The notes under the pieces were generated by a model. The model saw only the letters and a list, made by a program, of their open reading frames with translations. It was not told the DNA's origin and did no database searches. From a bacterium (GTDB taxonomy: Bacteria; UBP6; UBA1177; JAGLDR01), in assembly GCA_023145475.1 (NCBI GenBank), contig JAGLDR010000003.1, positions 1 through 33,449 on the forward strand: 33,449 nucleotides of DNA, given 5' to 3'. Positions within the stretch are counted from its first letter, which is position 1. Every line of letters starts with the position of its first letter. Both the position numbers and the translations under genes were made by a program. Positions 3,190 to 26,267 of this stretch are shown here, piece by piece.

Positions 3190-4518
3190 ATGCGTTTGTT
3201 TTATTTCATTTTAATGATTTTACTGTTAGCAAGTTGCTCACAAACAAAAACTCCATCTATCTATGTTGATAGTGATACATATGATGATTCTTCAATGGAT
3301 GATAGTGGAGATAATGATTCAGATGATTTACCTATAGTTGATGTTGATGCTGCTGAAGACGCAGACGACGATAGTAAGGGCGACGATTCATCGCGACCAG
3401 ATGTTGACGAAACCGTTGATGAAATTATTGACGAAGATGTAGAGACGCAAGATTTTGCGCCCGTTGATGACGACGAAACCGTTGATGAAATTATTGACGA
3501 AGATGTAGAGACGCAAGATTTTGCGCCCGTTGATGACGACGAAACTGTCGACGAAACAGCTGACGAGACCGTTGACGAAACAATTGATGAAACCGTCGAT
3601 GAAACCGTCGATGAAACCGTTGATGCTGATGAAGACGCTGATGTTCCTCCACCAGTTGAGATTTGTGATGGTATTGATAACAACGGAATAGATGGTATTG
3701 ACGAAGGATGCAATGATGACGGCGATGACTATTGCGATATAAATATGTACACTTATGGCCTTCCCGCAATTTGTCCAAAAGGTGGCTTAGACTGCAATGA
3801 TAATGATCCCACAATATATCCCTTTTCAACTCACTTTAAAGAGGGTGTTGATTACGATTGCGATGATAGAATTGAGTATGGTGTTGAGCTGATTATCTCT
3901 GTTGATGACACTCTAATTGATATGTGTGTGAATAGTGAAGATATTACTTCATTTGGCCCGCGTTACAGTAACTGGACATACGCTGATACTTATAACCATA
4001 ATACTTCTCTCTTTTTTGTTATGGAATCGGGTGAAAATGTAATTGGTATTCATGGACGAGATGCCGGCACCGTAATTTCAGCATTTATAGCAACCGTAAA
4101 GGTTAATGGTACAACTATTCGAACAGATGGTGTAATGCCAAAACTGCCACCAACAAATCCAATTGTACCCTATACACCTTCCGATGCTCAGTGGACGGCA
4201 ACTCCTTGGCGTTACTATCCAAATCCAGCAAGTGGAAGCCCAAATGGTGGCTGGTGTGACCCTTGGTTTAATGACGATGACTGGGGTCCAGCGATTCGTG
4301 CAGGAATTTATGGTTCATCTCCTGTGGGAACATGGGGCGAACTGGGTAGTTCTCCATGGACGATGAGTTGTGGAACACCTGCAACCGTACCATGTCCCGC
4401 AGATTTTAGACCTTATTATGATGATGCAATTGCAAATAATGAACCGATGTGGATATGGGACTATAATCCGGCAAGTCTTGCTGACGCGTGGTTTCGTTTG
4501 AAAATAGTTCTTCCTTGA
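3190..4518 (+). CDS. Acidic-stalk lipoprotein with MopE-like metal-binding motif
   Basis: A 442-residue surface lipoprotein. The signal peptide ends LLLASC, giving lipidated Cys16. Residues about 26-155 are a nearly continuous Asp/Glu stalk made of DETVDE-type units and an exactly duplicated 22-residue block. Residues about 157-212 match the MopE-like putative metal-binding motif: CDGIDNN, DGDDYCD, GGLDCNDNDPTIYP. The remaining ~230 residues look like a beta-sandwich, with WFNDDDW, GTWGELG and a terminal WIWDYNP...AWFRLKI pattern seen in galactose-binding-like domains. The start has AGGAG at 3176-3180. It has no enzymatic signature. A role as a surface adhesin or metal/glycan binder is inference. 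Confidence 0.82.
   Translation: MRLFYFILMILLLASCSQTKTPSIYVDSDTYDDSSMDDSGDNDSDDLPIVDVDAAEDADDDSKGDDSSRPDVDETVDEIIDEDVETQDFAPVDDDETVDEIIDEDVETQDFAPVDDDETVDETADETVDETIDETVDETVDETVDADEDADVPPPVEICDGIDNNGIDGIDEGCNDDGDDYCDINMYTYGLPAICPKGGLDCNDNDPTIYPFSTHFKEGVDYDCDDRIEYGVELIISVDDTLIDMCVNSEDITSFGPRYSNWTYADTYNHNTSLFFVMESGENVIGIHGRDAGTVISAFIATVKVNGTTIRTDGVMPKLPPTNPIVPYTPSDAQWTATPWRYYPNPASGSPNGGWCDPWFNDDDWGPAIRAGIYGSSPVGTWGELGSSPWTMSCGTPATVPCPADFRPYYDDAIANNEPMWIWDYNPASLADAWFRLKIVLP
3406..3537 (+). repeat. Exact 66-bp tandem duplication (two copies)
   Basis: Bases 3406-3471 and 3472-3537 are identical. Each encodes 22 residues starting DETVDEIIDEDV and ending FAPVDD. Synonymous positions also match, so this is recent duplication rather than protein-level selection. 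Shorter DETVDE-type 12-bp units continue to about 3624. Confidence 0.97.
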
Positions 4519-15844: not shown

Positions 15845-17350
15845 ATGAAAATTGGACAGACAATTTTAGTGATGTTTTTGTTGGTAATCATGATTAGTTG
15901 TGGTGACAAAAGTAATGATTCTGCCACAGACTTTGATCTTCGTTCCGATAGTGATTTGTTAGGCGATAGTGATGATGCCGTTAGCGATAATGATGCTGCT
16001 GCAGATGATGGTGAATCTGTTGATGATGACGCAACACCAGATGAGACGGTTGATTGGGACCAAAATTTGACACCCCCACCTGCTTCTGAGCCATTTATCA
16101 CTGTTTGGAAAACGGACAATTTAGATGAACATAACTCATATCAATCGCATGAAGATCAAATTGAGTTACCACTTGTAGAAAATGGATATTATAATTTTCT
16201 TGTTGATTGGGGTGATGGACACCAGCAGGTTATTCGTTCATGGGATTCAGCTTTGAAAAGACATACATATTCAGAGGTTGGGAGTTATACCGTTACGATA
16301 ACAGGGATTTTAACTGGGTGGGCATTTTATGAATATGACGAGGACTTAAGGCGTGAAATCCGTAAAGATGCAGATAAACTTCTTGAGGTGAAAGGGTGGG
16401 GTTGCTTTGAATTTGGCGACACTGAGGGACAGTTCTTTGGTGCAAAAAATCTTCTGATTACGGCAACAGATAAACCAGACTTGAGTCGTACAAAGAGTGC
16501 TAAAAAAATGTTTGAAGGATGTTCCCTGCTTGCTGATATTCCCGGAGTAAATAAGTGGGATATGTCAAAGATTGAAACTATGGAGGCGATGTTTTCCTCA
16601 GCTGTAGTCTTTAACCAAGATATTTCAATGTGGGATGTTTCGCAGGTTACTACTATGGAGCGAATGTTTTCACTTGCTCTACAGTTTAATCAGGATATTT
16701 CACCGTGGGATGTCTCTCATGTTACAACAATGAAGGCGATGTTTGAACATGCCGAACTTTTTAACCAAGATATTTCATCATGGAAAACTTCATCTCTTAC
16801 GAATGTAGAAAAGATGTTTATGTGGGCGAAAGTGTTTAATCAGAATATAGATACTTGGGATGTTTCAAAGGTTACAACAATGAAGGATTTCTTTTGGGGA
16901 ACTCGCGATTTCAATCAAAATATTGCATCGTGGGATGTTTCTCAAGTGACTGATATGAGTGGTCTTTTTTATTGGTCAACTTTGTTCAATCAAGATCTTT
17001 CAATGTGGAATGTGGGAAATGTAACAACGATGGCGAAGATGTTTGAGCATACGCTTGTATTTGATCAGAATCTTTCATCGTGGAGTGTGGAAAAGGTAAC
17101 CGATATGACAAAAATGTTTGCTGAAATCGAGCTTTCAACTGCAAACTATGATGCACTTCTTATTGGTTGGGCAGCTCAAACTGTTCAATCTGGGATAGTG
17201 TTGGATGTAGAAGCTTCGCAATATACTGCAGGAGCTGCAGCAACTGCACGACAAAAATTGATTGATGATTTCAGCTGGACAATCAATGATGGTGGCGAGC
17301 TAGGCGAAGTTGTAGGTGATGAAGATACACTTCCCGATGAGGATATCTAA
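15845..17350 (+). CDS. Lipoprotein with acidic stalk, PKD-like domain and BspA/DUF285 repeats
   Basis: A 501-residue predicted lipoprotein: a hydrophobic signal ending MISC (Cys19, a slightly atypical lipobox), an Asp-rich stalk (about 25-72), a PKD-like beta domain (about 80-165, with VDWGDGHQQ, RHTYSEVGSYTVTITG) and then DUF285 / BspA-type surface repeats. Seven 25-residue units of the form MFxxAxxFNQDISxWDVSxV run from about residue 249 to 423, with a partial unit on each side. The C terminus has the usual family ending ANYDALLIGWA...FSWTINDGG. Proteins of this kind occur on surfaces of varied bacteria and some bind host or matrix proteins; the ligand here is unknown. Confidence 0.87.
   Translation: MKIGQTILVMFLLVIMISCGDKSNDSATDFDLRSDSDLLGDSDDAVSDNDAAADDGESVDDDATPDETVDWDQNLTPPPASEPFITVWKTDNLDEHNSYQSHEDQIELPLVENGYYNFLVDWGDGHQQVIRSWDSALKRHTYSEVGSYTVTITGILTGWAFYEYDEDLRREIRKDADKLLEVKGWGCFEFGDTEGQFFGAKNLLITATDKPDLSRTKSAKKMFEGCSLLADIPGVNKWDMSKIETMEAMFSSAVVFNQDISMWDVSQVTTMERMFSLALQFNQDISPWDVSHVTTMKAMFEHAELFNQDISSWKTSSLTNVEKMFMWAKVFNQNIDTWDVSKVTTMKDFFWGTRDFNQNIASWDVSQVTDMSGLFYWSTLFNQDLSMWNVGNVTTMAKMFEHTLVFDQNLSSWSVEKVTDMTKMFAEIELSTANYDALLIGWAAQTVQSGIVLDVEASQYTAGAAATARQKLIDDFSWTINDGGELGEVVGDEDTLPDEDI
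16589..17113 (+). repeat. Seven 75-bp DUF285 repeat units
   Basis: Units begin at 16589, 16664, 16739, 16814, 16889, 16964 and 17039, each 25 codons, with the core FNQ(D/N)(I/L)S-W-(D)VS-VTTM. Related partial units flank them (from 16508 and from 17114). DNA copies are diverged, so this is an old array. Confidence 0.9.
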
Positions 17351-17432: not shown

Positions 17433-17471
17433 GCCTTGAAAAAGATGATCATAATTTGTAAGAGGGTCACT

Positions 17472-20400
17472 ATGAAATCAAAATTTTTAATGGGTTTTCT
17501 CCTTTTGTGTGTGATGGTATTTATGCCGCATACTATGATGGCAGCCAGCGGTGTTTTTCAGATGGAAGGTGAGACTTTTCACCAAAGAAACACCTATGAT
17601 GATCCTGTGTGGGAGGTTGTTGCACTTAAATACAGTTATGATATCCCAATTATTGTAACTATTCCCAACACCTCGGGAAATCATCCAGCTGATTTTAGAG
17701 TGAGAAATGTGACATCAACGACCTTTGAAACAACCATTGTTGAGCCTCCAGGATGGGATGGACCTCATGCTGCAATGGATGTTGCCTATTTTGCAGTAGA
17801 GAAGGGGCTGTGGACACTTCCTGACGGAACTTTAGTTGCTGCAGGAACCGTTGATACTAAAGCGGTGGTCAGCCGTACAGGAGGAACTTTCACCTCGGTT
17901 ACTCTTCCATCTGGTTTTACCAATCCAATTATTTTGACTATGATTCAAACAATAAATAATGAGACTGGAAATGTGCCAGATGAGTCATCTAGTCCATGGT
18001 TAAATGCCATTGTTAAAAATGTAACAGCAACAAGTTTTGATGTTGCGTTAGATAATGGTGAATGTAGTTCTGGACCGTTAGCTTTGACAGAAACGGTTGG
18101 CTGGGTTGCCATTGAAGCTGATGTTAATGGCTCTTTTGTTGATGATGATGCTGTAACGATTACCCATGAATCGATTAAAACGGACCCTATTATTACGGGC
18201 TGGAATGAGGGAGGTGTTCAAGTGCCCCTCACTCAAACATATGCTGTTACTCCTCGTTTTGTTGCAAAATTGCAGTCAAGAAATGCAAGCGATGGTGGAT
18301 GGTTTAGATTTAACGGACTTTCACCAACTAGCGTTACTCTTAGAGTTGATGAAGATACCTGTTTTGACAGTGAAAGATCACATTCAGACTATCCTGAAGT
18401 TGCAGGAGTTTTTGTCTTTTCAGAAAGTTTTAGAGTGCAAGATGATGATAATGATGGTGATGGTATTCCTGCAGCCATAGATAACTGTCCTACAATTGCA
18501 AATGTTGATCAAGCTGATGGGGACTTGGATGGTGTTGGCGATGTGTGCGATAACTGCATAAGTGATGTAAATACGCCTCAAATTGACACAGATGACGACG
18601 GTTTTGGTAATGTTTGTGATGATGATGATGATAATGATGGTCTCACAGATGTTGAAGAGATAGCGCTGGGAACTGATCCATTGCTTGCAGATAGTGATGG
18701 TGACGGTCTGAATGATTACATTGAAAGTAACGGTGGAAATGTGGTTGATAGTGATGGTGATGGAATCCAAGATCCACTTGATACCGATGATGACGATGAT
18801 GGGATAGATACTGCCGTTGAGGTGAGTGATAGCTCTGTTTTTGGTGATGATATTGATGGTGATGCCATTCCAAATTGGTTAGATGAAAATAGTGATGGTG
18901 ACATGCTAGATGACTTTTTTGAAGGTCGTTTTGATGATGACAATGACGGTGTTCCAAACTATCTTGATCCAGACGATACTGATGGACCTGACGGTGATGC
19001 CGATGGCGATGGTTTGACAAATGCAGAAGAGGTATATCTGCATACAAATCCGAACAATCCTGATACCGATGGTGATGGGATTGATGACTTTGTTGAAACT
19101 AACGGTGGAGACCCAGTCGATACAGATGGTGATTGGATTATCGATGCAAATGATCCAGACTCAGACAATGATGGCGTTGATGACTCCGTTGAAGGTGTTG
19201 GCGATATTGATGGTGATGGTACGCCTAACTATCGTGATGCTAATGTTTGTGGTGACGGTGGAAATCAAGGTTCTGAAGAGTGTGATGACGGGGCGAACAG
19301 TGACGGTGATGGTTGTGATGCAACCTGCTATGTTGAGTCAGGATACAGTTGTGATGCTGCAAACCCAAGTGTTTGTAGTGATGTAGACGAATGCGCAGAC
19401 AGCACAAACAACTGTGATCAAAATTGTAGTAACACAGTTGGTGGATTTACCTGCTCTTGTAATGCAGGCTATACGCTGAACGCAGACGGACATACTTGTG
19501 ATGATGTTGATGAATGTACCGATGACACAGATGGTTGTGCACAAGATTGTACAAATACCGCTGGTAGTTACACCTGTTCATGTGCATCAGGTTATACGCT
19601 GAACGGTGACGGACATGGCTGTGATGATGTAGATGAATGTACCGATGATACCGATGGTTGCGCACAAGATTGTACAAATACCGCTGGTAGTTACACCTGT
19701 TCATGTAATGCAGGATATACGCTGAATGGCGATGGTTTTACCTGTGATGATGTTGATGAATGTGCAGACAGTACCGACAACTGTACTCAAAACTGTAACA
19801 ACACGCCAGGTGGCTTTACCTGTGACTGTAATGCAGGATACGCACTAAATGCGGATGGATTTACCTGTGATGATGTTGATGAATGTACTACTGGTACGAC
19901 TAACTGTGAACAAATCTGTATTAATGATATTGGAAGTTATCACTGTGACTGTAATCTAGGGTTTGTGCTCTATCCAGATGAATATGCCTGTGCTGTTGAC
20001 ACCGATTCTGACGATGTGCCTGATGTTATCGATAGTGATGACGATGGTGATGGAATTCTTGATGCCGATGAAGGTAATGGCACCGTTGATACTGATGGTG
20101 ATACCATTCCTGATAGCTTAGATCTTGATTCTGATGGTGATGGTGTTCCTGATTCAATCGAAGGTTTTGACACGAATAGTGATGGCGTTCCAGATATTAC
20201 GCCAACAGGAAATGACACCGATAATGATGGATTAGACGATGCGTTTGATACGGATAATGGTGGAACTCCCGCCTCGTTGCAAGACACAGACAGTGATACC
20301 ATTTTTGATTTCCAAGATGATGATGATGATAATGACGGGCTTGATACAATAAATGAAGATGAAAATGGAAATGGTGATTTTGCTGATGATGATGAAGATG

Positions 20401-22541
20401 GCGATGGCATTCCTGATTATTTAGATCCTGATAATGTAGCAACACCAGATGAAGATGTTATTTCAGATGTGGACGCAGTCGCAGATATGGACACAGTCGC
20501 AGACATTGATGCAGTCGCAGATATTGATGAAGTTGCAGATATGGACGCAGTCGCAGACATGGATGAAGTTACAGATATGGATGCAGTAGCAGATATTGAC
20601 GCAGTCGCAGACATTGACGCAGTCGCAGACATTGATGAAGTTGCTGATATGGACGCAGTCGCAGACATTGATGCAGTCGCAGATATGGATGAAGTAGCAG
20701 ACATTGATGCCGTTGATGATTCTGATGATTCAGAAACATCTGATGATCCGTATGCAGGCTATAAAGTTAAGGGTGGTGGTTGTTCTTTGACAATTTCTGA
20801 TGATGAAACATCTGAAAGCTCTCTTCTGTTGGCTCTGTTAGCTCTTTTTCTTTCACTTTTCTTATCGTGGTTTATACCTAAAAAAAAAGGTATAATCGTC
20901 ATAGCACTGTTTTTGATGCTGACGACGACATCTCTTCTCAACGCTGAAGCATCAATAAATGTAAAAGCCTACAATCAAAGCCCACTGCATGGAAACATTT
21001 TGTCAACACACGATGCTCTTCCTGCTCCACTCTGGGATATCTATTTTGGATTTCTTGTGGGTTACAGCCACAAACCGCTGGTGCTTGAAAGTACCTCTTC
21101 AACAACTTCAGACAGGACACTTGTAGGCAGTCGAGTGGATTTGGATTTATATGGTTCTGTTGGATTTGGTAGGTGGTTTGATTTTGGTATTACCTTGCCT
21201 GTTATCCTCTATCAAGGCGGCGATGGTTATCTGAATGAAGATATGACTCATGGCGGTGTCGGTGATTTGACAATTCTTCCTCGCTTTCATATTTGGGGAC
21301 CCAAAAGTCATGTTTTTGATGCTGCAATTATTCTTGAAACCACATTCCCAACAGGGCAGGCGGTCGATCCATTTATGGGCTCTTCGAGTGTAACATTTTC
21401 TCCAACTTTGGCACTTTCAACAAGAATAAAGTGGTTTCACGCTGCTTTTAACTTCTATTACAGAATTGTGAAAGAGCAGACAGTCGGCAACTTGACAGTT
21501 GATGATGAAATTGGAATGAAACTCGCACTCTCGTTTTCTGTTATTAAAAATCTTGATCTGATGACAGATGTGTTAATAAAATCTTCTGCAAAGAACTATT
21601 TTAAAGATTTGACTCAATCGCCAGTTTTGCTCAACATCGGTGCTAAAGGGTATTTGAAAGAGAGAAAGATTGAACTTAGTGCGGGAACAGGTTTTGGTTT
21701 GACTGAGGGGTATGGAAATCCTATTTTTCATGTTTTTGGACAATTTACCTATCATATTGGCCACGAAAAGAAGAAGCCAGAGCCAAAACCCGAACCAAAG
21801 CCAGAGCCAAAGCCAGCTCCCGTTGCGCCACCTGATGCAGATAAAGATGGCATTCCTGATGCAAAAGATAACTGCCCGAAAATAGCAAACAAAGAGCAGA
21901 AAGATATAGATGGCGATAAGAAAGGTGATGTGTGCGATGAGGATAAAGATGGCGATACAATTCTTAATAAGGATGATAATTGCCCAGATATCGTCAACAA
22001 AGAGCAAAAAGACAGAGACAATGACAAAAAAGGTGATTTGTGCGACGATGATATTGATGGTGACACTATTCTTAATGAAAAAGATATGTGCCCAAAGAAG
22101 CCAGAGAGTGTCAATCAGTTTGAAGACGAAGATGGCTGTCCAGACATCAAACCTGTGGCAAAACTGAAGCATATCGAAGTTGTAAAAAACAAAATTGTGG
22201 TAAAATCAAAGATTTTCTTTGCACTCGGTAGAGCAACGATTAGGAAGAAGTCGTTAAGCACTCTTGATGAGGTGGTAATGATTCTTGAATCAAACCCAGA
22301 TATTCACATGGTTATTGAAGGACATACCGACAAAATTGGTAATTATGATAACAATGTTGCACTTTCCCAAAAGCGAGCTGATTCGGTGATGAATTATATC
22401 GTTAAAAAAGGCATTGATGCTAGTAGACTCACCGCAAAAGGGTACGGTCCAGATTTTCCAATTGCACCTGGGAACACACGAAAAGATAACAATATGAACA
22501 GAAGAGTTGAGTTCAACGTTGTCTTTCAAGATGCAGAATAA
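17472..22541 (+). CDS. Giant TSP3/EGF surface protein fused to an OmpA-family protein (possible polyprotein)
   Basis: A 1689-residue protein (ATG 17472 after GAGGG). In order: signal peptide (1-26); three ~95-residue beta domains, weakly H-type-lectin-like (about 28-320); thrombospondin type-3 Asp repeats (about 323-592); a DUF4215 Cys motif (593-635); five calcium-binding EGF-like domains (637-841); more TSP3 (about 842-1000); a DxVADx acidic stalk (1001-1084); GGGC with Cys1104; a hydrophobic helix (1118-1135); PKKK; a second hydrophobic segment (1140-1158) with AEA (1158-1160) resembling a signal-peptidase site; an outer-membrane barrel-like region (about 1161-1420); a Pro/Glu/Lys linker and TSP3 repeats; and an OmpA peptidoglycan-binding domain (about 1565-1689, with [13 protein letters not shown] and NRRVEF). 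The C half should sit in the outer membrane and bind the wall. The N half resembles a calcium-dependent adhesin, by inference. Confidence 0.85.
19380..19994 (+). repeat. Five tandem 123-bp calcium-binding EGF-like units
   Basis: Units start at 19380, 19503, 19626, 19749 and 19872, each 41 codons beginning DVDEC and holding six Cys in EGF order. Units 2 and 3 share an exact 44-bp block (gcacaagattg to acctgttcatgt), so that duplication is recent. Confidence 0.92.
20472..20723 (+). repeat. Fourteen 18-bp units encoding an Asp-rich stalk
   Basis: A six-residue unit, Asp-(Ala/Glu/Thr)-Val-Ala-Asp-(Ile/Met), repeats 14 times without interruption; the last unit is degenerate. Bases such as gcagtcgcaga recur almost unchanged, so copy number is likely to vary between strains. 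Confidence 0.93.
20872..20895 (+). other. A9 homopolymer inside an 8-bp inverted repeat at the fusion junction
   Basis: TTATACCT (20872-20879) and AGGTATAA (20888-20895) are perfect complements around eight A; counting the A in the right arm, the run is nine (20880-20888). In frame it reads Pro-Lys-Lys-Lys-Gly. With one A fewer the reading becomes Pro-Lys-Lys-Lys-Val-stop. Confidence 0.6.
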
Positions 22542-23227: not shown

Positions 23228-23842
23228 ATGACGAAGAGTCTTGAACAAATTTACAATAAGTTTGCTGAAACATACGATAAAAACAGAAGTCTTTTTGATA
23301 TGACCGAGATTTTTGACTCTTTTTATGGGACATTAAACCATAAAAACGGAAGTCTACTTGATCTTGGTTGTGGTGCAGGGGAATCGTTCTCAAAATTGTT
23401 TGTTGATAAAAGGTGGAGTGTCACTGGTGTCGATTTTTCAGAGAAGATGGTTGAGTTGGCAACAAAATATGTGCCAGAAATGACAACAATTCACGCCGAT
23501 ATGCGAAAGCTGGTTTTTGAGCCACGCTCTTTTGATGCAATCAGCGCAATTTATAGCCTTTTTCACCTTCCAACGAGTGATCATTTTGCACTTTTTGAAC
23601 ATTTTTATCGTTGGCTCACTCCTGGCGGAATGGTGCTGTTCACCTATGCAACAAAAGAGTATACGGGGAGCGAGCGATTTGATGGTGAAAAAGAATTTAT
23701 GGGTCAAAATCTCTACTATGGTCATAAGAAACCGGATGAGCTCTATCTTGATTTAGAGTCGATTGGATTTATGGTTGAAGCTGCCGATTATCGCACGATT
23801 GGTGGAGAGACTTTTCTGTGGATTATCTGTAAGAAGCATTGA
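23228..23842 (+). CDS. SAM-dependent methyltransferase (class I)
   Basis: A 204-residue Rossmann-fold methyltransferase. Motif I is LLDLGCGAG (43-51), the acidic ribose-binding residue follows in VTGVDFS (Asp69), and the later blocks are HADMRKLVFEPRSFDAISAIYSLFHL and LTPGGMVLFTYA in the usual order. The N-terminal ~25 residues (FAETYDKNR) are typical of Methyltransf_11/25 enzymes acting on small molecules or lipids. The substrate is not predictable. AGGAG (23213-23217) lies ten bases before ATG 23228. It sits between a surface operon and a secreted peptidase with no evident functional tie. Confidence 0.88.
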   Translation: MTKSLEQIYNKFAETYDKNRSLFDMTEIFDSFYGTLNHKNGSLLDLGCGAGESFSKLFVDKRWSVTGVDFSEKMVELATKYVPEMTTIHADMRKLVFEPRSFDAISAIYSLFHLPTSDHFALFEHFYRWLTPGGMVLFTYATKEYTGSERFDGEKEFMGQNLYYGHKKPDELYLDLESIGFMVEAADYRTIGGETFLWIICKKH

Positions 23843-23863
23843 TATATTGAGTGTTTTTTATTC

Positions 23864-23872
23864 TGGTATGAT
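23864..23872 (+). promoter_or_regulatory. Extended -10 promoter candidate for the metallopeptidase gene
   Basis: TGGTATGAT (23864-23872) is an extended -10 element 55 bases upstream of ATG 23928. A TTGAGT upstream leaves only a 14-base spacer, so the -35 is weak or absent. Confidence 0.4.
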
Positions 23873-23927
23873 TTTTGCTCTAATCTTTAGTGGTTTGAAG
23901 TTCATTATTATCTTACAAGGAGTTGTT

Positions 23928-26267
23928 ATGAGAGTTTTTACCGTTATTTTGCTTGTTTTATTGTTGCAGATATCTCTTGTTGCTGAGTCGCTTTCAGCAA
24001 AAAGTATTGTGCGTGACAGAGATGGTGTTTTCTCGATTGAAAAGCTCTCTATTCCTGTTGAACGGACACCACTTGCTGTCAGAAATCTTCTGATAACGAA
24101 GTTGAATGGTCGTCTGAATTTAAATGAGGAGTTGATTCCTCATTTTAAGGCTGGTTACGGACCAATCGAAAACTCTATTCTGAAATTTGACTATAGCTAC
24201 AAAGACATTCCTGTTTCTGGTCGTTATACGGTTGTTACTCTTTCAAATGGAAAGGTGATAAAGGTTGCGTCTGCAGTGGAAAATATAGAGTTAGATGTGA
24301 AAAATCTTCTCCCTCTTAACGGTGCTGTAAAAGATGCACAGTTTGCCCGTTTTGGAAAAGAGCTGAAAAGTACTCCAAAAATCTATTCAAAGACAATAAT
24401 TATGAAGTGGTTAGGCAGTTACCGTGTTGTCTATAAAGTGAGTTTTACTCCTACATCACTTGCTGATGGTCGTTTCTACCTTGTTGATGCCCACACTGGC
24501 GAATATTTTGGCGGTGGTAACAGCGTCCGTAATGCCGAGCCAACAAATATGGCAAAGGTGTTTGAAACAAATCCGCTTCGTAATCCTGAGCCAATTGAAG
24601 TTGAGCTTCCCTGGGTTGCCGATGATAAAGATGGCTTTTTGACCTCAGCTGAAGGGAGTGATGGCCTCAGACGCATCGTTGCAACAAACTGTCTTGATGA
24701 GGGAGAGAAAGTTGCAGCACCCGATGGAAGTGGTGATATTCCAATTTGTACTCCTCGTCAAGTTGCTAATAAGGATATAAATGGTAGCTTTATCTATGAA
24801 GATTGGGATAAAGGTGTTCAACAATCCTTTGATATTGATGATGTTTATGCAGAAGTATCAATGTATTATCACGCTTCAAAGATTTATAAATATCTCCTTT
24901 CACTTGGGACTGAAGAGTTTGATTATCTTGCCGCACACCAGATGGATAAAGATGCAAAAAAGCCACTGATTGTTGTTGGTAATTTTCAGTTTCCTGCACG
25001 AAGCGGTGGTCTTGCTCCAATGGATAACGCCTTCTTTTCACCTGAATCTCCGCAGTTTAATGACCTCTTTTTCAAGAATTTCCCCTATCAAGGCTCTCTT
25101 TTGGTTTTTGGACAGGGTACAAAGACAGATTTTGGATATGATGGAGATGTTGTCTATCACGAATTTGGCCACGCAGTTGTAGAGACAGCTGGTCCACTCT
25201 CTGCCTTGGCTTTTCCTGATAGATATGGGTTCACGATGGAGTCGATGTCAATCAACGAAGGTTTTGCTGATACCTTCTCTTTTTTGATGACAGAGGATGA
25301 GTGTCTTGGTGAGTACGCTTCAGTTGGAATGGCTGCTCAAGCACAGCTTAAAAAGAATTCTGAAGGGTTTTACTGCATGAGAAACGCAGTAAATGATAAA
25401 AAAGCAAATGAAAATTTTACCGGAGAGAGTCACCACGACGGACTTTCGATGCTGGCAACACATTGGGAGGTATACCACCTTGCTCTTGATAAAGGTCTTA
25501 CAAAAGATGACTTTTCACGACTCTTTTTGAGAACACTCTACTCAATTCCGACTGCCAATCTCTACTTTGAAAGATATGCACGACTCTTTATGGATCAAGT
25601 TGATTCAGATACAAAATTCTCTCCATTTAAAGATGAAATTCGGGCGATTTTTGAAAAGAGAAACTTTTTTGAAAAGGTACGAGCAAGAGATATTATCGGT
25701 AAGTTTGATTACATAATGATTGGTGGCATAATCGCACCGATGGGCGCACCTAAAGCATCATTTAAAGTTGATACAGGTGATAGAGTAGAAGAGATTTCTC
25801 CTGCCTATGTTCAATTCTATTATGATGTTCCAGAGTGTACCGATACTTTAAAGATTACTGCTCAAACACAGGCAACACAGACATATACCACACAGGGTCC
25901 AAAACTAGAACTCTATGTGAGAGAAGGGCAGCATCTTGATTTTATGGTTGATGATTTTCCTATCACTGTCAAAGTTGATTCAATCATTCAAGATGAAGGT
26001 GGATGGAATGTAACAGGATTAACACCAGGTAAGCGCTATTATATGCAGTTTGTTAACAAAGCTGGCGATGGTGTTATCTACTCTATGAATCTGAAAGAGG
26101 AGTGGAACAGTGAAGCTGAGTGTACTGTCGAAGAGCAAGATGATTCAGAGATAACAGACTCAGAAATAAGTGATGATGAGACAAGTGATTCAGAAACCAG
26201 TGACAGTGATAATAGCGAGCAAGAGACATCAACAAAATCTGATGGTTGTTCTTTGTTAATAATCTAG
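23928..26267 (+). CDS. Secreted gluzincin metallopeptidase (M4/M36-like) with FTP propeptide and GCS tail
   Basis: A 779-residue exported zinc peptidase. Domains: signal peptide (about 1-25); an FTP/PepSY-type inhibitory propeptide (about 60-200, with FDYSYKDIPVSGRYTVV and YLVDAHTGE); a catalytic domain with HEFGH (411-415) giving two His ligands and Glu412, and the third ligand probably Glu444 in NEGFAD; a C-terminal beta domain (about 600-730); a Ser/Asp/Glu stalk (about 735-770); and a terminal GCSLLII with Cys774. The HEFGH...NEGFAD pattern is that of gluzincins, but the exact MEROPS family is unclear. ATG 23928 with AAGGAG upstream is chosen over an opening at 23763 that would lie inside the methyltransferase gene. 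Confidence 0.87.
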   Translation: MRVFTVILLVLLLQISLVAESLSAKSIVRDRDGVFSIEKLSIPVERTPLAVRNLLITKLNGRLNLNEELIPHFKAGYGPIENSILKFDYSYKDIPVSGRYTVVTLSNGKVIKVASAVENIELDVKNLLPLNGAVKDAQFARFGKELKSTPKIYSKTIIMKWLGSYRVVYKVSFTPTSLADGRFYLVDAHTGEYFGGGNSVRNAEPTNMAKVFETNPLRNPEPIEVELPWVADDKDGFLTSAEGSDGLRRIVATNCLDEGEKVAAPDGSGDIPICTPRQVANKDINGSFIYEDWDKGVQQSFDIDDVYAEVSMYYHASKIYKYLLSLGTEEFDYLAAHQMDKDAKKPLIVVGNFQFPARSGGLAPMDNAFFSPESPQFNDLFFKNFPYQGSLLVFGQGTKTDFGYDGDVVYHEFGHAVVETAGPLSALAFPDRYGFTMESMSINEGFADTFSFLMTEDECLGEYASVGMAAQAQLKKNSEGFYCMRNAVNDKKANENFTGESHHDGLSMLATHWEVYHLALDKGLTKDDFSRLFLRTLYSIPTANLYFERYARLFMDQVDSDTKFSPFKDEIRAIFEKRNFFEKVRARDIIGKFDYIMIGGIIAPMGAPKASFKVDTGDRVEEISPAYVQFYYDVPECTDTLKITAQTQATQTYTTQGPKLELYVREGQHLDFMVDDFPITVKVDSIIQDEGGWNVTGLTPGKRYYMQFVNKAGDGVIYSMNLKEEWNSEAECTVEEQDDSEITDSEISDDETSDSETSDSDNSEQETSTKSDGCSLLII

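Follow-up and report, generated by a model that had tools for sequence, protein, structure and literature searches.

An open reading frame that joins a predicted adhesin to an outer-membrane barrel through a sorting-type tail and an internal signal peptide

Can a sorting signal of the C-terminal kind stand in the middle of a protein, directly followed by a second signal peptide? An earlier note on the DNA analyzed here (the window, the whole stretch of 33,449 nucleotides) had claimed that a sorting-type tail and a signal peptide lie back to back in one open reading frame. Our direct reading of the frame and its translation bears this out: 17436/17472-22541 is one ORF without a stop, and the junction has the anatomy described. 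The ORF encodes 1701 amino acids when counted from the TTG at 17436. The likely start is the ATG at 17472, which is 3' of an AGAGGG-like site. With numbering from this ATG, the cysteine of the GGGC motif is residue 1104, the AEA sequence ends at 1160, and the predicted mature second half begins at 1161, in agreement with the positions given earlier. From its N terminus, the product has a signal peptide, an unassigned domain, TSP3/EGF repeats and an acidic stalk, which leads into the GGGC-helix-PKKK tail. A helix like that of a signal peptide, with AEA at its end, comes next, and the second half then consists of a barrel with 12 predicted strands, more TSP3 repeats and an OmpA domain (Table 1). 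Strong hydrophobicity over 17 residues is reached at exactly three peaks of the product: one is the N-terminal signal peptide, and the other two flank PKKK at the junction.

Table 1. Features of the fused ORF and of a nearby gene in the window
Feature	Position	Strand	Basis
Sec signal peptide at the N terminus of the whole product	17472..17546	+	direct reading; hydrophobic peak 2.02; cleavage point by eye
Adhesin body: TSP3-type repeats, cysteine-rich acidic repeat, five Ca-binding EGF domains	18441..20459	+	Pfam EGF_CA 137 bits, cEGF 138 bits, TSP3_bac 45 bits; TIGR02232 34 bits
Tandem repeats in the adhesin body	19449..19888
Acidic repeat stalk, 18-base period	20464..20710	+	tandem-repeat reading
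GGGC motif with Cys1104	20772..20783	+	sequence; compare GRGC/GHGC/GSGC at the equivalent place in fused homologous loci
Tail helix	20814..20876	+	KD 2.61, top value among the ORF's hydrophobic peaks
A9 run coding KKK: basic tail end and n-region of the next signal peptide	20880..20888	+	sequence
h- and c-region of the internal signal peptide, with AEA before the predicted signal peptidase I site	20889..20951	+	KD 2.35; alignment to N-terminal signal peptides of split relatives L002-L004
Outer-membrane beta-barrel, 12 predicted strands	21039..21758	+	AlphaFold2 model; PDB matches by Foldseek to FapF and COG4313 channels
Proline-rich linker and TSP3 repeats	21759..22145	+	Pfam TSP_3 75 bits
OmpA-like peptidoglycan-binding domain	22215..22502	+	PF00691 75.3 bits; 71 bits in another Pfam search
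Exported protein with short tail KSDGCSLLII	23763..26267

The AlphaFold2 model of the second half, made with 27 homologues, has a mean pLDDT of 77.8 and a confident OmpA domain in addition to the barrel, and OmpA domains are also among its Foldseek matches. The gene neighboring the fused ORF (15845-17350) encodes a lipoprotein-like product with DUF285 repeats (231 bits). Elsewhere in the window, a secreted protein (3190-4518) has 66- and 12-base tandem repeats at 3406-3625 that code an acidic DETVDE stretch, stalk-like as in the fused ORF.

Split and fused relatives

The best homologues of the window's barrel are found in three genomes of another family of the same order, where the barrel has a gene and a signal peptide to itself. 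The barrel ATG is 12 bases 3' of the stop codon of a gene for a TSP3 protein with an acidic stalk, and that upstream protein ends in GGCGCSVVF or GGCGCSVIF, without a helix. The upstream halves of the window and these relatives share the TSP3 repeats and the acidic stalk, but not the N-terminal domain. Given the split relatives, and the alignment of the internal signal peptide with their N-terminal ones, the second half of the fused ORF most likely descends from a separate gene. In a further operon of this type in the relatives, the upstream protein ends in GGGGCSLTTL (G004 and G002) or GGGGCSLTLL (G006); in G010 it has a full tail with a helix, GGGGCSLTTVENGESPETVAGVWLAIALLGIASILRRMSIA. An alignment search with the window's second half returned the three split relatives only, and a search of contig proteins with it gave no matches. 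A second copy of the junction was not found in the viral contigs searched, nor was a second assembly of the species found, and the fusion is known from one draft genome of its family.

The earlier note would have given up the fusion if close relatives always carried two separate genes. Within the window's own order they do, but another phylum fuses the same parts. We searched 193 genomes of the phylum of genome G055 for a tail, a second signal peptide and a homologous barrel. Counting the listed matches that extend from the tail onward, at least about 70 of the 193 have the layout in one frame, often in several copies per genome, in frames of roughly 850-5200 amino acids. The fused loci that we read are 36-100% identical to the query. 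A typical junction (43 were read) consists of G[RHS]GC, a helix, 4-6 Arg/Lys, a second helix, A-x-A, and a barrel start like IDVQQYKPG. Of the 43, 32 lack an in-frame ATG, GTG or TTG between the two helices (as bordered by a script, roughly for a few loci), and therefore the second half can hardly be made alone. The phylum is presumably Myxococcota, because G055 has MrtX (444 bits) and TraB (998 bits), both above their cut-offs. Overlapping TraA/TraB ORFs were also read in G055. The fused layout is real and not a product of chance, as dozens of genomes of that phylum conserve this order of parts.

A tree of 43 barrels indicates how the fused state could have arisen. The window's barrel nests among its order's split genes (100/97), and the fused clade (100/98) is distant from it; the starred branches of the tree require the state to have switched between fused and split at least five times. 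By this tree, fusion has been gained or lost several times, and the window's fusion looks independent of that in the other phylum since its barrel is placed among split genes. Common descent of the fused state with the clade that resembles MXAN_5598 of Myxococcus xanthus (see below) is not supported. The tree argues against a shared fusion event, not against a shared function.

Sorting tails and candidate proteases

The tail of the first half had been described as MYXO-CTERM-type. The GGGC motif and the helix of these tripartite tails are present, but the basic end is Lys (KKK) rather than Arg and is followed by more protein. In a search of the window's genome with the MYXO-CTERM model TIGR03901 (cut-off 20 bits), the tail gave no match up to an E value of 10, and the best match elsewhere in the genome was 18.5 bits. 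Because the tail scores nothing with this model, we class it as MYXO-CTERM-like rather than as a tested member. Two other proteins of the same genome have classic C-terminal Cys-helix-Arg tails, GSGCSIVTTDESEGNLLAALLIGLLALLVFRRRLS and GGCAQIAVDSTGRDGVSMLLLSLLFALSFVVVRRRNR (L036 907-3807, minus strand, and L077 1-1068, plus strand).

The earlier note had suggested looking in the genome for a sorting protease. The sole CPBP protease that we found there (L063 1816-2466, minus strand, contig C19) has EExxxR and HxxxN motifs. The families that it matches best are without exception myxosortases (MrtP 89.6 bits, MrtC 88.1 bits and Mrt_core 84.3 bits, the last with a cut-off of 100), but it falls below every myxosortase cut-off. 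One comparable CPBP match was found in each of four of the five relatives tested. This protease could possibly represent a new myxosortase subfamily that serves short tails. The genome also encodes signal peptidase I and the type II secretion secretin GspD (423.7 bits, cut-off 351). A cut by a rhombosortase-type rhomboid was considered and rejected; there is one rhomboid in the genome, but CPBP myxosortases are the enzymes to expect from the Cys tail.

C-terminal tails that are short and lack a transmembrane helix, with (G)GC[STA] followed by 3-4 hydrophobic residues, occur on exported proteins, most of which have acidic stalks. In addition to the one in the window (Table 1), such proteins are found elsewhere in its genome (L035, L074, L079, L072, L051) and in relatives (L040, L044, L183, L188, L190, L191, L194, L196). 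The strict pattern GC[STA]hhh was found in 4 of 559 ORFs in a sampled third of the window's genome (0.10 expected) and in 8 of 334 ORFs in G004 (0.08 expected), so that 12 were seen in the window's order versus about 0.2 expected. In the loci of the other phylum it was found in 0 of 111 ORFs. The same orthologous operon has the short tail in G004, G002 and G006 and the full helix tail in G010. To judge from their makeup, the short tails look like a helix-less MYXO-CTERM or a CAAX-type signal. No described family for them was found in a limited literature search. They could reveal which part of the sorting signal is truly needed.

Processing of the product and alternative readings

We think it likely that the ORF is a natural in-frame fusion of an operon of TraA/TraB layout, and that its product is a single chain cut by signal peptidase I and by a myxosortase-like CPBP protease. 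The first half would be exported by way of the N-terminal signal peptide. The tail helix would then halt in the inner membrane, leaving KKK on the cytoplasmic side, and the helix after it would go back into the membrane, acting as an internal signal peptide. A cut by signal peptidase I after AEA could release the barrel to the outer membrane, and there the OmpA domain would bind the cell wall. The CPBP protease could cut at Cys1104, which is probably lipidated and is the presumed cleavage site, and the adhesin could be carried to the cell surface, perhaps by the type II system. This would yield the adhesin together with a barrel partner tied to the wall, at a fixed 1:1 ratio. We infer this topology, both cuts, the lipidation and the partnership of the halves; the hairpin in particular follows from two exported flanks with KKK between the helices, according to the positive-inside rule. 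By analogy, the two products might function as an adhesion or recognition pair.

A hairpin cut by a sorting protease and signal peptidase, as the earlier note proposed, is in our judgment the best-supported reading, and candidates for both enzymes are present. A real fusion with an uncut product, a single hairpin protein that tethers adhesin and barrel, seems very unlikely. In its favor, cleavage on either side is deduced and the tail misses the MYXO-CTERM model. However, such a protein, with both halves exported, would tie the barrel to the inner membrane through a spacer that, in the AlphaFold2 model, has 29 residues from the AEA site to the first barrel strand. This spacer would be too short to cross the periplasm uncut, which makes at least the signal peptidase cut likely. 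Moreover, the AEA site and the Cys motif are expected cut sites, and the split homologues exist as separate proteins.

Other alternatives turn on the A9 run under the junction, which is the only run of nine or more A or T in the window. An error of assembly or base calling at or near this run could have merged two genes, and the closest relatives are split. A stop in the +1 frame (TAA 20893) would end the tail as PKKKV, and the +2 frame has a stop at TAA 20879. However, the last start before the run in the +1 frame is ATG 20803, which is followed by a stop at TAG 20839, and in the +2 frame GTG 20867 is followed by the stop at 20879. Since every frame lacks a start codon from which the barrel would be made with its signal peptide, a single miscounted base could not restore a normal gene pair; the assembly would have to have lost a longer piece. 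Many other genomes genuinely have this fused layout too, and we consider an error unlikely. Two genes with internal initiation were rejected as well. The only start codon in frame ahead of the signal peptide is TTG 20829, within the beginning of the first helix, which would make a poor signal peptide, and a sequence scan of the fused frame found no ATG, GTG or TTG between 20829 and 20913. Alternatively, slippage on A9 could give two products, with some chains ending in PKKKV (the adhesin alone) and others fused. Runs of this length are known to slip, and the neighboring frame has a stop five bases after the run. However, a stop soon after a run in a given frame is not rare. Slippage is not a conserved device, because the homologous fusions mostly have Arg at the place of KKK and are conserved without an obvious equivalent; we regard it as the least probable of the alternatives. 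We favor a genuine fusion whose product is cut on both sides.

We also entertain, tentatively and with somewhat more doubt than belief, a broader proposal. In at least two phyla, fusion of a surface receptor to its barrel partner may have occurred repeatedly and given a self-sorting polyprotein with a tail/signal-peptide hairpin. The Cys tag may be modular, appearing in the window's order as a helix-less CAAX-like C-terminal tail, a classic helix tail and an internal hairpin.

Comparison with known systems

In FbcH, the cytochrome b/c1 precursor, a second protein is freed by signal peptidase at an internal signal peptide. FbcH differs from the window's ORF on the other flank, where it has neither a sorting tail nor a second protease. 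Literature searches on internal signal peptides yielded no useful result.

A second comparison is with the outer membrane exchange pair TraA/TraB. Its ORFs overlap by four bases in M. xanthus (PMC3325183), and TraB consists of a barrel, TSP3 and OmpA and is in a 1:1 complex (PMC12045341). As in the window, a surface protein with a Cys-rich stalk and MYXO-CTERM is directly followed by a signal peptide, a barrel, a TSP3 linker and OmpA. The second half of the window's ORF has the TraB domain order and scores 193.4 bits with the TraB model NF033763 (106 and 94 bits per piece), below the equivalog cut-off of 700; in split relative L002 the full-length score is 188 bits. Judged by these scores, the barrel half is homologous to TraB-like proteins. 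In contrast, TraA and TraB are made separately, each from its own frame, whereas the window has one chain, and its first half has no match to TraA.

The earlier note knew of no described case of this layout, but MXAN_5598 of M. xanthus is one: a single ORF with a large adhesin, an internal MYXO-CTERM, an outer-membrane beta-barrel and OmpA (Guo, Haft & Wall 2025, PMC11980579). Those authors regard it as probably two fused genes, liken it to TraA plus TraB with overlapping ORFs, and propose that its N-terminal half is processed and surface-anchored. The window's ORF likewise has an adhesin, an internal Cys tail, a second signal peptide, a barrel and OmpA in one frame, and a homologue of MXAN_5598 in G055 (L029/L089), a fused copy that adjoins ftsZ as MXAN_5598 does, has a barrel homologous to the window's. 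The two differ in that the window's barrel is on another branch of the tree (the starred clade of split genes from its own order), its tail has GGGC and KKK and is not Arg-rich, and its neighborhood is not ftsA/ftsZ. What seemed a one-protein oddity of M. xanthus is a widespread and recurrent design that is also present outside the phylum of that protein. The fused genes are therefore a test bed for the mid-chain action of a C-terminal sorting signal and for the need for a 1:1 supply of receptor and barrel. The layout itself is already described; as far as we searched the literature, its breadth and its independent occurrence here are new.
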